29,960 bases of DNA from the IMG/VR virus record IMGVR_UViG_3300042561_000633, positions 1 through 29,960 of that record; one strand, written 5' to 3'. The DNA comes from a virus. The notes under the pieces were generated by a model, which saw nothing but the letters and a program-made list of their open reading frames with translations, did no database searches and was not told where the DNA came from. This document shows, one piece after another, positions 25,310 to 29,960 of the stretch; positions within the stretch are counted from its first letter, which is position 1; each line of letters begins with the position of its first letter. The position numbers were made by a program, and so were the translations under genes.

Positions 25310-25456
25310 ATGATGAAAAACTCCATATATGGCTGTGGCAAAAGGTGTTACAAGACCCGAAAGGAGGCACAAGAACATTGTGACAATGATCAACAACCGT
25401 ACATGTGTTGGGAGTGCGAAACATGGCACATAAAAAATAATGGAGAAAACACTTGA
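25310..25456 (+). CDS. Small zinc-ribbon-like early protein, 48 aa
   Basis: I choose the ATG at 25310. A longer frame starts at 25265, which is only 4 bases from the -7 element and would add a hydrophobic stretch. The 48-aa protein has C9 and C13 (CGKRC), C24, and C33/C36 (CWEC) followed by WH at 39-40. The last pairs look like a treble-clef or zinc-ribbon knuckle in which two Cys pairs bind zinc. Many Bacteroidota phages have a similar small CxxxC...CxxCxxWH protein, of unknown job. It is the first gene behind the early promoter. Its TGA stop is followed at once by a small hairpin and the next promoter. The long-start alternative cannot be excluded. Confidence 0.65.
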   Translation: MMKNSIYGCGKRCYKTRKEAQEHCDNDQQPYMCWECETWHIKNNGENT

Positions 25457-25483
25457 CAACCTTGCGTGGTTGTTTTATGTTTG
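25453..25483 (+). promoter_or_regulatory. Second early promoter, before the replication initiator
   Basis: TTG (25453-25455), a 20-base spacer and TATGTTTG (25476-25483) fit TTG-N20-TAnnTTTG. It overlaps the end of the small zinc-ribbon gene. Expected transcription start is near 25488, giving a leader of about 110 bases before the initiator ATG at 25601. Confidence 0.65.
25456..25476 (+). terminator. Weak hairpin at the end of the zinc-ribbon gene
   Basis: A perfect 6-bp stem ACAACC/GGTTGT (25456-25461 with 25468-25473), loop TTGCGT, followed by only TTT. It lies immediately after the stop and inside the following promoter. A partial terminator is plausible, but the T-run is short. Confidence 0.4.
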
Positions 25484-25561
25484 TAGAAATATTTCACCCC
25501 TCGTTTGTTACGAACCACAGCAAACTAGGGTTGGAAGATGGTTACAAATCATAACCAACTC

Positions 25562-25597
25562 AAAAGCTCGCAAAGTGGTTCTTGCGAGCTTTTTTTA
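25562..25597 (+). terminator. Strong intrinsic terminator/attenuator before the replication initiator
   Basis: A perfect 9-bp stem AGCTCGCAA/TTGCGAGCT (25565-25573 with 25582-25590) is extendable by three A-T pairs to 12 bp. It has an 8-base loop and is followed by seven T. It sits between the second early promoter and the initiator's ATG at 25601, so the initiator needs read-through. An upstream in-frame ATG (25538) lies before it. In the leader, GGTTA (25540-25544) and GTTGG (25530-25534) can both pair with a shared TAACCAAC segment, so alternative folds exist. Confidence 0.8.
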
Positions 25598-25600
25598 TCT

Positions 25601-26323
25601 ATGCATAATCAATATTCAATCATTCCGGCGAGCGTGTTGCTCAGTAAGGAACTATCGTCTACAGAGAAGTTGCTCATAGGCGTAATCTCAAACCTATCAA
25701 ACATCAAGGGGTATTGCTTTGCCTCAAATCACTACTTGGGCGAATGCCTTGGTATATCCAAGCATAGTGTTAGGCGGGTTATCGCCGACCTTGAGCAGAA
25801 AGGTGTTTTGGGGAGAATAGTCAAACTCAATAGTCGAAATGAGGTTGAGGTGAGATGTTTAACTATAAATACAGACGCTGATATTTTAAGCAGAACGGTC
25901 ACCCCCGAAATACCAATGTCTGAAAATGAGGAGGATGAATTTTTTGATCATACCCCTGCTCAAAAACCTGCATACCCCCTGCTCAAAAACCTGCATACCC
26001 CTGCTCAGGAATGCTCACATAATAAAAAGAATAAAGTAAAAGAAGAAAATAAGTATTCTTTCGAGCAGTTTTGGCTGGCTTACGACAAGAAGGTTGACAA
26101 GAAACAAGCACTAACTGCTTGGAACAAACTATCCGATGGCGAACGCACCCTGGCAGTTGAAGGCATGGGAAACCATAAGAGCGGTCGCGAGCGCAAGTAT
26201 TGGAAGGACCCGGTGCGATATCTTCGCGACAAAAGGTGGGAGGATGAACCGGTTAACACAAACACGAACGTAAAACAAACAAACTATAACTACGACGAAA
26301 ATGACCCAAGGAATAAATGGTAA
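25601..26323 (+). CDS. Helix-turn-helix replication initiator, 240 aa
   Basis: I choose the ATG at 25601. An in-frame ATG at 25538 would add 21 residues encoded by the terminator hairpin. The N-terminal domain (about 10-75) is a winged helix-turn-helix of the phage replication-protein kind: SSTEKLLIGVIS, then the recognition-helix region GISKHSVRRVIADLEQKGVL. A variable linker (90-150) contains the DNA repeats. The C-terminal domain (152-216) has the pattern F-x-x-FW-x-x-YDKKVDKKQA-x-x-AW and DPVRYLRDKRWEDE, common in phage initiator and helicase-loading proteins (lambda O/DnaD-like). It overlaps the primase-helicase by 23 bases, so the two are co-expressed. The likely role is binding the origin and recruiting the helicase; homology is by motif only. 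Confidence 0.8.
   Translation: MHNQYSIIPASVLLSKELSSTEKLLIGVISNLSNIKGYCFASNHYLGECLGISKHSVRRVIADLEQKGVLGRIVKLNSRNEVEVRCLTINTDADILSRTVTPEIPMSENEEDEFFDHTPAQKPAYPLLKNLHTPAQECSHNKKNKVKEENKYSFEQFWLAYDKKVDKKQALTAWNKLSDGERTLAVEGMGNHKSGRERKYWKDPVRYLRDKRWEDEPVNTNTNVKQTNYNYDENDPRNKW
25949..26015 (+). repeat. 22/23-bp tandem repeats inside the initiator gene (iteron candidates)
   Basis: Copies start at 25949 (22 bp), 25971 (23 bp, one extra C) and 25994 (partial). All share CATACCCCTGCTCA (copy 2 has one more C); the first two also share the following AAAACCTG. The unit length is not a multiple of three, so the three copies encode different peptides. It is close to two helical turns, as for plasmid and phage iterons. 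Confidence 0.8.
26019..26060 (+). other. AT-rich tract, candidate DNA-unwinding element
   Basis: By my count only 6 of 42 bases are G or C (about 14%). It starts four bases after the repeats and is purine-rich on the plus strand. Repeats followed by an AT-rich tract inside an initiator gene is the lambda origin arrangement. Confidence 0.5.
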
Positions 26324-28238
26324 GGTATCCATCTACAAAGACTTCAATGACCTGCAAGGACACACGATTAGTGTACTGGGCGCACTTGAACGAATTAGGA
26401 ACGGAAAGTCAAAGGCACTTGTCGAAAAGGCGAGGGAAGCCAAAACCAAGAAAGAGGCCGACGAGTTAAAAAAGAAGCTCCCTGCCGTTTGTTTTAGTGG
26501 GACTTTTTCCAAAAGAAAGGACTCTGACCTGCTCGAACACTCCGGATACATCGTTTTGGACTTCGACAACGTGGCGGATATGGCCCAAAAACGAAACGAA
26601 TTGTGTTCGGTGGGGTATATTACCGCAGTTTGGATTTCGCCCTCAGGAAAGGGCTTAAAAGCGCTCGTCCAAATTGAGTGGAAAACTAAGCATAAGGAAC
26701 ACTTTGATGCCCTAATGGCGGAAATGCCCGACATTGACAAGACCGGTCGCAATGTTTCCCGGCTATGTTTCGAATCGTATGACCCTGATCTGTACTACAA
26801 TCCGAATGCAGAGGTTTATAATAATTTACCTGTAAAGAAGGCTGACAGGAGGTTGCCCCAACAGATAACCACCGAGACGATTAACGATGACGACAAGATA
26901 TTCCAAAACCTGTTGACGTGGATGACATCCAAGGGTGACGCCTTCCGCGAGGGCGAGAGGAACCACTTCGTGTTCAAGTTGGCAGCAAGCTGCTGCCGGT
27001 TCGGGATGATGGAGGAAACCTGCTATGGCCTGATGATGATGCATGTCACCCCCGACTCTAGCTTTAGTCAGAAGGAGTGCAGACACGCCATACGTAGCGC
27101 CTACCGGTCTAACATGAATCAGTGGAACACAGCTGAATTCACCAAGGACCAGTTGGTTAGTAAGGCTAACCATGCGGAGATTAATATCGTAATCACCGCA
27201 GAAGATGCGGAGAATATTGCCGCAGAGGATGTGATCTATGCCGAGGAGGTAATGGAACAGGCCGCTGAGATTTACCACAAGGGCTATCAGGCGGCCATGC
27301 CACTAGGCGTCCCATTGCTCGACAAACACTTCAAGAGGGTCAAGGGGGAGTTAACAATTGTTTCCGGAATAGGAAACTATGGTAAGTCGTCGTTTATGAA
27401 GTGGGAGATGGTGTTCCGCATGGTCAAGTTTGGTGAGAAGGTTGCCATCTTCACCCCTGAGGAATTGCCGGCCGAGCAGTTCTACCATGACCTTGTAGAG
27501 ATTTATTTCGGGAAGGACTGCACACCCAACAACTACAACAGGCCGAGTTACGATGCGTACATGAAGGTGTACAAGATGATTGGGGAGCATGTCTTCATGG
27601 TGTACCCCAAGAACGTAAGCCCCACGCCCGACTACGTCAAAGAGGTGTTCCTGAGCATGATTATCAAGCACGGTGTGGACAGAGTGGTAATCGACCCGTT
27701 CAACCAGATGGCAAACGACTACACCAAGGGAGGGGGGCGAAGCGACAAGTACCTTGAGACGTTCCTGTCCGACTGCACCCGGTTTGCCCGAAAGAACAAC
27801 GTGTACTTTGACATCGTGGTCCACCCACACAAGATGAGAAAAGGAGATGACGGCAATTACCCATGCCCAGAGGTGTTTGACCTTGCTGATGGGGCGATGT
27901 GGAACAACAAGGCCGACAACATCCTGATCTACCACCGTCCACTTGCTCAGACGGCGCCGGAAAGCCCGTTATGCGAGTTCCACTCCAAGAAGATTCGTAG
28001 GCAGAAGATTGTCGGCATCAAGGGATTCTTTGACTTTGAACTTGTAAGGTCTACTCGCAGGTTCACGTTCGAGGGCGTCGATTACCTTCAACAGGCGATC
28101 GAGGGTAAATATGTACAATCTGAAATCAAACAGCCAACCGCGATAAAGCCGAACAAGAGCTGGACAGATTCGAAGGAGGTGAGGGAATGGAACGAGGACG
28201 TTGGACACCCGAACGGGTATAGGGAAGCATGGGAGTGA
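26301..28238 (+). CDS. VirE-N/BT4734-like plus DnaB-type primase-helicase, 645 aa
   Basis: Two modules are visible. Residues about 55-165 match the VirE N-terminal/BT4734-like domain found in Bacteroidota mobile elements: YIVLDFDN (83-90, acidic pair D87/D89) and ISPSGKGLKALV (112-123). A helical linker (about 190-290) carries a PriCT-like look. Residues about 330-600 form a RecA-type helicase core: Walker A GIGNYGKSS (356-364, K362), Walker B RVVIDPFN (461-468, D465), motif VVHPH (506-510) and a basic KKIRRQKIVG (563-572) likely holding an arginine finger. It would unwind, and possibly prime, phage DNA at the fork. The start lies 23 bases inside the initiator gene. The ending and the next promoter leave a 104-base gap. 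The primase activity is inferred. Confidence 0.85.
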   Translation: MTQGINGKVSIYKDFNDLQGHTISVLGALERIRNGKSKALVEKAREAKTKKEADELKKKLPAVCFSGTFSKRKDSDLLEHSGYIVLDFDNVADMAQKRNELCSVGYITAVWISPSGKGLKALVQIEWKTKHKEHFDALMAEMPDIDKTGRNVSRLCFESYDPDLYYNPNAEVYNNLPVKKADRRLPQQITTETINDDDKIFQNLLTWMTSKGDAFREGERNHFVFKLAASCCRFGMMEETCYGLMMMHVTPDSSFSQKECRHAIRSAYRSNMNQWNTAEFTKDQLVSKANHAEINIVITAEDAENIAAEDVIYAEEVMEQAAEIYHKGYQAAMPLGVPLLDKHFKRVKGELTIVSGIGNYGKSSFMKWEMVFRMVKFGEKVAIFTPEELPAEQFYHDLVEIYFGKDCTPNNYNRPSYDAYMKVYKMIGEHVFMVYPKNVSPTPDYVKEVFLSMIIKHGVDRVVIDPFNQMANDYTKGGGRSDKYLETFLSDCTRFARKNNVYFDIVVHPHKMRKGDDGNYPCPEVFDLADGAMWNNKADNILIYHRPLAQTAPESPLCEFHSKKIRRQKIVGIKGFFDFELVRSTRRFTFEGVDYLQQAIEGKYVQSEIKQPTAIKPNKSWTDSKEVREWNEDVGHPNGYREAWE

Positions 28239-29045: not shown

Positions 29046-29297
29046 ATGAGTAAACAAACAGCAGTAGAGTGGTTATATAGTGAGTTGTCCAAAAATCACA
29101 TCTCAAATAATTCGATAAAAAGCAGAATTGATAAAGAAGTAGAAATTTGGAAACAAGCCAAAGCAATGGAGAAGGAGAACATAATAGAAAGTATGGGAAT
29201 TGCATTTATTGATGCGTTAAAAATACAAGAAGGGAAAAAGTCATCATATAAAGATTGGGAACACTATTACAACGAAACATACGGAGGTGACAAATGA
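29046..29297 (+). CDS. Small tandem paralog A, 83 aa
   Basis: An 83-aa helical protein. It shares its beginning (MSKQTAVEWL), middle (QAKAMEKE) and end (YYNETYGGDK) with the following gene, while the rest diverges. This pattern (TAVEWL, then QAKxMEK, then YYNETY) recurs as small genes of unknown function in Bacteroidota phages and genomes. The final codons carry GGAGGTGA, a perfect match to the 16S anti-Shine-Dalgarno, placed correctly for the next ATG. The stop overlaps the next start by four bases (ATGA). Its own start has no Shine-Dalgarno. Composition suggests a cytosolic protein; no catalytic residues are recognised. Confidence 0.75.
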   Translation: MSKQTAVEWLYSELSKNHISNNSIKSRIDKEVEIWKQAKAMEKENIIESMGIAFIDALKIQEGKKSSYKDWEHYYNETYGGDK

Positions 29298-29524
29298 GTA
29301 AACAAACGGCAGTAGAGTGGTTGGTTGACAAAATTGAAAAAAATGTTCACCACACAATAAAAATACCTAACGAGTATTTTGAACAAGCCAAAGCAATGGA
29401 AAAGGAGCAGATTGAAGAGGCTTGGGATAAAAGATGTTCTCATGGAGTTGTTTCTCAAACTTGGCATATTGAAACAAAAAATGGTGAACAATACTACAAC
29501 GAAACATACGGAGGTGACAAATGA
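29265..29524 (+). repeat. Direct repeat at the two paralog 3' ends with Shine-Dalgarno
   Basis: About 31 nearly identical bases (TACAACGAAACATACGGAGG core, then TGACAAATGAG) recur near 29267-29298 and 29494-29525. Each copy ends in a GGAGGTGA plus ATGA stop/start unit, so the unit carries its own translation signal to whichever gene follows. Confidence 0.7.
29294..29524 (+). CDS. Small tandem paralog B, 76 aa
   Basis: A 76-aa protein and paralog of the preceding gene: identical MSKQTAVEWL, shared QAKAMEKE and a shared YYNETYGGDK tail, with a divergent centre (IEKNVHHTIKIPNEYFE; WDKRCSHGVVSQTWHI). Its start is served by the GGAGG in the end of paralog A, six bases before ATG. Its own end carries the same GGAGGTGA for the DnaA-like gene, again with a four-base ATGA overlap. 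This makes a translationally coupled set. The function is unknown. Recent tandem duplication with divergence of the middle is the simplest explanation. Confidence 0.75.
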   Translation: MSKQTAVEWLVDKIEKNVHHTIKIPNEYFEQAKAMEKEQIEEAWDKRCSHGVVSQTWHIETKNGEQYYNETYGGDK

Positions 29525-29960
29525 GATACACATTTAAAGACCTTGTAAGGTTAGTCCCTGTAAACAAAAGGGCGGAGTTTACAAGAGTGTACGAGTACCT
29601 GCACAAGATTGAAAACCCACAGGAGAACGAAATACTCGAAATGGTAAGCAACTACTTTAACGTGAAACCGAGCGACATCAAGAGCGACAAGAGGTACGCC
29701 GACGTGGTTATGGCCCGGCACGTGTACATGACCACCGTAAAGGTGTGTTCCACTAAGACGCTGGCCGAGGTTGCCAAGTCGATAGACAAGGACCACGCAA
29801 CGGTTTGCCACGCGCTGAAGAACATCAGAAGAGACTACGACTTCAATGCCGTTAGGCGCCATAAGATACGCGACTACATAGCGCAGTTAGACCAAGTTAA
29901 ACAAGAACTATTATTAGACTTTTTCAATGAACGGAACCCTGATATCCTTGCCAACTACGC
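29521..29960 (+). CDS. DnaA domain IV-like protein (3' end outside window)
   Basis: The frame from ATG 29521 is open to the window end (146 codons). After a short N-terminal helical part (1-45), residues about 46-104 match the C-terminal DNA-binding domain IV of DnaA: FNVKPSDIKSDKRYADVVMARH, TLAEVAKSIDKDHATVCHAL. The DH-x-TV-x-H core (D91, H92, T94, V95, H97) is the DnaA-box recognition signature. No AAA+ ATPase domain precedes it, so this is a domain-IV-only protein. The start is coupled to paralog B by ATGA and a perfect Shine-Dalgarno. It may bind DnaA boxes to recruit or to interfere with host initiation, or act as a phage regulator. The missing end prevents a final length. Confidence 0.8.
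   Translation, partial: MRYTFKDLVRLVPVNKRAEFTRVYEYLHKIENPQENEILEMVSNYFNVKPSDIKSDKRYADVVMARHVYMTTVKVCSTKTLAEVAKSIDKDHATVCHALKNIRRDYDFNAVRRHKIRDYIAQLDQVKQELLLDFFNERNPDILANY

Follow-up and report, generated by a model that had tools for sequence, protein, structure and literature searches.

Does the replication initiator gene of this phage hold, inside its own coding sequence, the origin from which replication starts? The sequence-only reading proposed this for positions 25949-26060 of the window, the whole 29,960-base stretch analysed here, and the comparative evidence makes such a phage origin inside its own initiator gene very probable. It is the best reading because silent sites are constrained, the array is unique, the repeats are specific to each module, the elements are exchanged jointly and a repeat grammar is shared among homologues. 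The window is a genome fragment, and relatives whose ends are repeated measure about 66-70 kb. Judged by terminase and primase, the cultured phages closest to it are Flavobacterium Elemovirus podophages and Maribacter phage Panino, so that Bacteroidota podovirus is a fair label.

Iterons and an AT-rich tract in the initiator linker

The initiator consists of an N-terminal HTH_36 winged helix, a linker encoding the iterons and the AT-rich tract, and a conserved C-terminal domain (Table 1). It belongs to HTH_36 by its PF13730 score of 39.3 bits against a cutoff of 25, and residues 4-222 match the phrog_270 replication initiation protein, beside which the 'replication initiation O-like' PHROGs 678 (1.9e-7) and 391 (8.5e-7) match weakly (lambda O was compared via PHROG profiles only). 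Longer starts upstream of the ATG at 25601 were rejected, not being conserved in relatives. The AlphaFold model of the full protein, built on a 6-sequence alignment, is fair for the DNA-binding domain and poor for the linker and C-terminal domain, and the fold matches are therefore weak; Foldseek relates the DNA-binding domain to winged-helix proteins including the Rep-DNA complex 5kbj and the initiators 4pt7/4pta (E ~0.01-0.03). The VirE-N primase-helicase named in the sequence-only reading is confirmed by a match to BT4734-like_N (E 1.6e-21), which we take to be the former VirE_N.

Table 1. Features of the initiator locus (window positions) and linker repeats of the related modules
Feature	Position	Strand	Details and evidence
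Bacteroidota-type promoter, TTGACA then TATGTTTG	25453..25483	+	sequence; conserved in relatives; upstream of initiator
Leader RNA, P1/P2/P3 hairpins	25482..25600	+	folding, covariation
P1 hairpin	25498-25530	+	loop GAACCAC 25512-25518
P3 intrinsic terminator	25562-25593 plus T run	+	loop GTGGTTC 25575-25581
Replication initiator gene, 240 aa	25601..26323	+	HTH_36 5.5e-10; phrog_270 4.5e-30; start by comparison
HTH_36 DNA-binding domain	25649..25804	+	Pfam residues 16-67; AlphaFold pLDDT ~80; Foldseek
Iteron 1, CATACCCCTGCTCAAAAACCTG	25949..25970	+	22 bp; repeat analysis, TRF, synonymous shuffles, genome count
Iteron 2, CATACCCCCTGCTCAAAAACCTG	25971..25993	+	23 bp; repeat analysis, TRF, synonymous shuffles, genome count
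Iteron 3 (partial), CATACCCCTGCTCA	25994..26007	+	14 bp; repeat analysis, genome count
AT-rich tract, candidate DNA unwinding element	26019..26060	+	14.3% GC; stability rank; synonymous constraint
Conserved C-terminal domain (FEQFW...RRWEDE)	26063..26323	+	comparison; constant partner of exchanged N-terminal cassettes
Primase-helicase: BT4734-like_N, PriCT_1, DnaB-like	26301..28238	+	profiles; overlaps initiator end
Module A repeats, ACCCC-TGCTC-AAAAA			period 22/23 bp
Module A2 repeats (L017), ACCCYATGACCAAA			period 23 bp
Module B repeats, CCCGAYRTCGG-like palindromes			period 16 bp
Module C repeats			period 15 bp

The linker carries three tandem CATACCCC(C)TGCTCA repeats whose starts lie 22 and 23 bp apart, and an additional TGCTCA at 26012-26017, past the partial third copy. 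Two copies of the 23-nt unit are 100% identical, and the TRF score of the array (109) is the maximum of the window. When the initiator gene was recoded by synonymous-codon shuffling with the protein kept, none of 200 shuffles reached its repeat score of 26 (mean 8.1, maximum 13.5). The repeats are real. The claim that the copies encode different peptides holds for copy 2 alone, which is out of frame (AYPLL); copies 1 and 3, 45 bp apart, both encode HTPAQ.

The 42-base tract had been put at about 14% GC, in line with the measured value; equally low GC occurs in just 12 of the 29,919 42-mers of the window, and by nearest-neighbour energy the tract ranks as its second least stable 42-bp segment. 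It does not begin within 4 bases of the repeats, as had been stated, the gap after copy 3 being 11 bp.

In the proposed mechanism, the winged-helix domain of the initiator would bind the three tandem iterons, and the bound array would destabilise and melt the adjoining AT tract. The conserved C-terminal domain, which we infer to contact the next-door primase-helicase, would then recruit it in a helicase-loading step from which theta replication could start. GC skew flips at the initiator locus and is uninformative because the coding strand flips there as well; the distant relative G019 shows no skew flip at the homologous site, and we rejected skew as origin evidence on both grounds.

No DnaA boxes lie near the repeats, the only matches being degenerate and kilobases off. 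The window encodes, at 29521-29958, a phage protein with Bac_DnaA_C (DnaA C-terminal DNA-binding domain, 1.1e-17), apparently lacking the ATPase. The podovirus MW202828 has an annotated dnaA gene upstream of its VirE-domain primase gene. Two small adjacent genes of the window (29046-29297 and 29294-29524) share similar starts (MSKQTAVEWL...) and similar ends (EHYYNETYGGDK / EQYYNETYGGDK); they represent one short phage protein duplicated in tandem.

Silent-site constraint and exchange of the binding cassette

Relatives carry one or another of four N-terminal modules, each placed before a near-constant C-terminal domain and primase-helicase, and each with its own repeats at the same place in the linker. 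Across 14 distinct module-A genes, synonymous differences amount to 0.02 inside 25946-26057 versus about 0.35 outside, and fall to zero over 26012-26059. Synonymous dips likewise cover the repeats and AT tract of module C, where they are strongest (lowest 0.00-0.03 versus 0.2-0.67 elsewhere), and those of module B, where they are weaker. Nine module-A records have the iterons at one site each and in three copies every time; a terminally redundant contig, the sole such case in module A, has two sets. The 12 genomes of other modules contain no module-A iteron array, G012 alone showing a single isolated match. Iteron number and spacing are conserved in module A, as the sequence-only reading had predicted, and in one module-A relative (L018) the iteron cores are mostly kept while the flanks are altered.

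Protein linkers are often repetitive and cassette crossovers do occur nearby, which speaks in favour of repeats that are neutral, arising by slippage duplication in a low-complexity linker or sitting in a recombination-homogenised block. We hold this to be highly improbable: periods of 22/23 and 16 bp are not multiples of three, the repeats of the window were never reproduced by the shuffles, in modules A and C the stretch of low diversity falls on the functional elements (the dip in B being weaker), and the altered flanks of L018 leave its cores mostly intact. A very slight chance likewise attaches to function of the block as RNA, such as a structured element or internal sRNA. RNA structure can freeze silent sites too, and the synonymous test cannot tell DNA from RNA function, but tandem direct repeats and an AT tract are DNA-type elements, and the different modules have unrelated sequences at this place.

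The boundaries of exchange are sharp. Between L006 (module A) and L032 (module B), identity is 93-100%, mostly 95-100%, across the 420 bp before the start codon, drops to 31-58% over about codons 1-160, and past the cassette returns mostly to >90%, about 96%. The tree built from 43 primase-helicase genes requires 17 changes of module type, versus 17.8 with random labels. Sharp identity borders and random placement on the tree together imply that the binding domain, iterons and AT tract travel together, and often; they are exchanged as one cassette, with the rest of the gene left in place. Distant relatives have repeats of period 21-22 bp at the corresponding place, and the L020 and L052 homologues have degenerate repeats only, by the repeat score used here. 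In L106, L108 and L109, a module-B-like binding domain and linker are fused to an unrelated C-terminal domain (FEDFRKKYGGTKKGSM...), indicating that the C-terminal half is exchangeable too.

The repeat grammar extends beyond these relatives. HTH_36 initiators from phages and prophages, both Firmicute and other Bacteroidota, have linker repeats that combine TACCCY with a variable core and an A-tract, recur every 22-24 bp and are followed by AT-rich DNA; ACCYY repeats 20-26 bp apart are present in 43 of 65 non-redundant HTH_36 linkers, against 10.3 expected from synonymous shuffles. Once the remainder of the domain is corrected for, iteron-core distance correlates with recognition-helix distance, the correlation being highest at that helix (n=25, partial r 0.20, permutation p 0.002, shared ancestry incompletely removed). 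This is suggestive only that the recognition helix may track the iteron core, and a claim of strong helix-iteron coevolution was rejected for so weak a correlation. The initiator of a cultured Elemovirus phage has 22-bp in-gene repeats as well, and the cultured Elemovirus phages give experimental access to the origin reading.

If the origin reading is correct, it places the origin of a large, uncultured Bacteroidota phage group, and the rule of TACCCY, variable core and A-tract within the linker of the initiator itself would find origins in many HTH_36 phages of two phyla. It would also mean that origin specificity is exchanged so frequently that the tree of the neighbouring gene fails to predict the cassette, a pattern that points to diversifying selection acting on origins of replication, like that proposed for the ICP1/PLE conflict.

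A kissing-loop leader RNA upstream of the initiator

A leader of about 118 nt (folding z -4.8) separates the start codon of the initiator from a promoter that fits what we take to be the Bacteroidota consensus. The stem of P3 ends 8 nt before the initiator ATG, and its loop is complementary to that of P1, so that the terminator loop is predicted to kiss the first hairpin of the leader. Pairing over 22 relatives reaches 90% for the structure, whose covariation score is unmatched in 500 shuffles, and 96% for the P1-P3 loop-loop helix, in which three pairs are doubly changed; this model (R2) replaced an earlier one (R1), dropped for having 5 pairs only. Loop-loop pairing recurs in 13 of 17 and 7 of 46 non-redundant initiator leaders versus about 0.4 expected in total, independent leaders using many different loop pairs, and in none of 26 leaders of a genome-derived, mostly Firmicute set.

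The kissing-terminator leader precedes the initiator in all five complete or near-complete genomes, three of which have one extra copy. Extra copies stand at another promoter (L135:7810-7928 (-), L134 ~1188 (+) and L141 ~7897 (+); genomes G002, G005 and G006), before a 239-aa protein in G006 and a short ORF in G002. Kissing-loop leaders are also found before the initiators of L123, L124, L126, L189, L190 and L205, and before HTH initiators in many Bacteroidota phages. An Rfam search of the leader RNA returned no family at threshold. A regulated attenuator and a put-like antitermination element, for which HK022 putRNA provides the comparison (PMC9378689), are the obvious candidates for its role, and the leader may be a more novel element than the origin.

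With a promoter and attenuator of its own upstream, regulation of the initiator clearly matters, and the repeats might then be operator sites through which the initiator or another repressor autoregulates transcription, the origin lying elsewhere. Repeats and silent-site constraint would suit any DNA-binding array. We nevertheless consider operators unlikely, since the array lies some 350 bp inside the gene and well away from the promoter, the constraint continues across a 42-bp AT tract for which an operator has no need, and the layout mirrors experimentally tested in-gene origins. An origin within the initiator gene remains our preferred reading. More tentatively, and with somewhat less than even confidence, we suggest that the initiator-origin unit may be a hypervariable specificity cassette that selection keeps diverse, with satellites, co-infecting phages or origin-directed defences as possible sources, and that it is expressed under a new class of phage leader RNA, in which a terminator hairpin and an upstream hairpin form a kissing loop.

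Comparison with known in-gene origins

The parallel with ori-lambda drawn in the sequence-only reading is sustained: iterons and an AT-rich tract lie inside the initiator gene, and iteron type is co-inherited with the N-terminal domain. Comparison thus supports a lambda-like in-gene origin, while the arrangement, thought new for such a phage, is known in kind from lambda, lactococcal phages and pSK41 plasmids. In lambda and the lambdoids (phi80, 82 and Stx phages) the iterons and AT-rich tract also occupy the middle of the initiator gene, and lambda O has an N-terminal DNA-binding half and a C-terminal helicase-partner half (PMC6022878, PMC7466680). Hybrids of lambda, phi80 and 82 exchange origin specificity in a pattern similar to that of the cassette described here (PMC6022878). 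The lambda origin differs in its four iterons, with 18-bp inverted repeats, where three 22/23-bp direct repeats stand here, and in that O hands over to P/DnaB; the gene following the present initiator encodes a fused BT4734-like_N primase-helicase.

In the lactococcal P335 phages, TP901-1 ORF13 and Tuc2009 Rep2009 bind direct repeats within their own genes, which are experimentally shown origins (PMC8965321); they resemble the present locus by arrangement, as phage initiators with direct repeats in their own gene, with binding here being predicted. Another in-gene precedent is pSK41, with Rep boxes centrally within rep, and in the pPR9 chimera the N-terminal domain and origin are exchanged while the C-terminal domain is kept (PMC5703833). 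RepA/origin modules of PLE swap repeatedly, which has been attributed to an origin-cutting nuclease, and cognate RepA-origin specificity was shown experimentally (PMC8263062). The RepA_N and PLE systems resemble the present locus in the cassette exchange pattern, and the DNA-binding domain here weakly resembles solved Rep proteins in fold; the PLE origins differ in lying outside the gene, and Pfam places the initiator in HTH_36, with no RepA_N match at E 0.1 and hence outside that family.

The Firmicute-phage phrog_270/HTH_36 initiators are homologous proteins with the same linker iteron grammar, differing in a period that is often 24 instead of 22/23, in the iteron core and, in part, in their C-terminal domains. 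In the searchable literature, mostly exclusive of subscription papers, in-gene origins of Bacteroidota phages go unreported, and the present one is apparently the first described for them. What is new beyond the known in-gene origins is the unusually fast-exchanging cassette and the iteron rule that crosses phyla.
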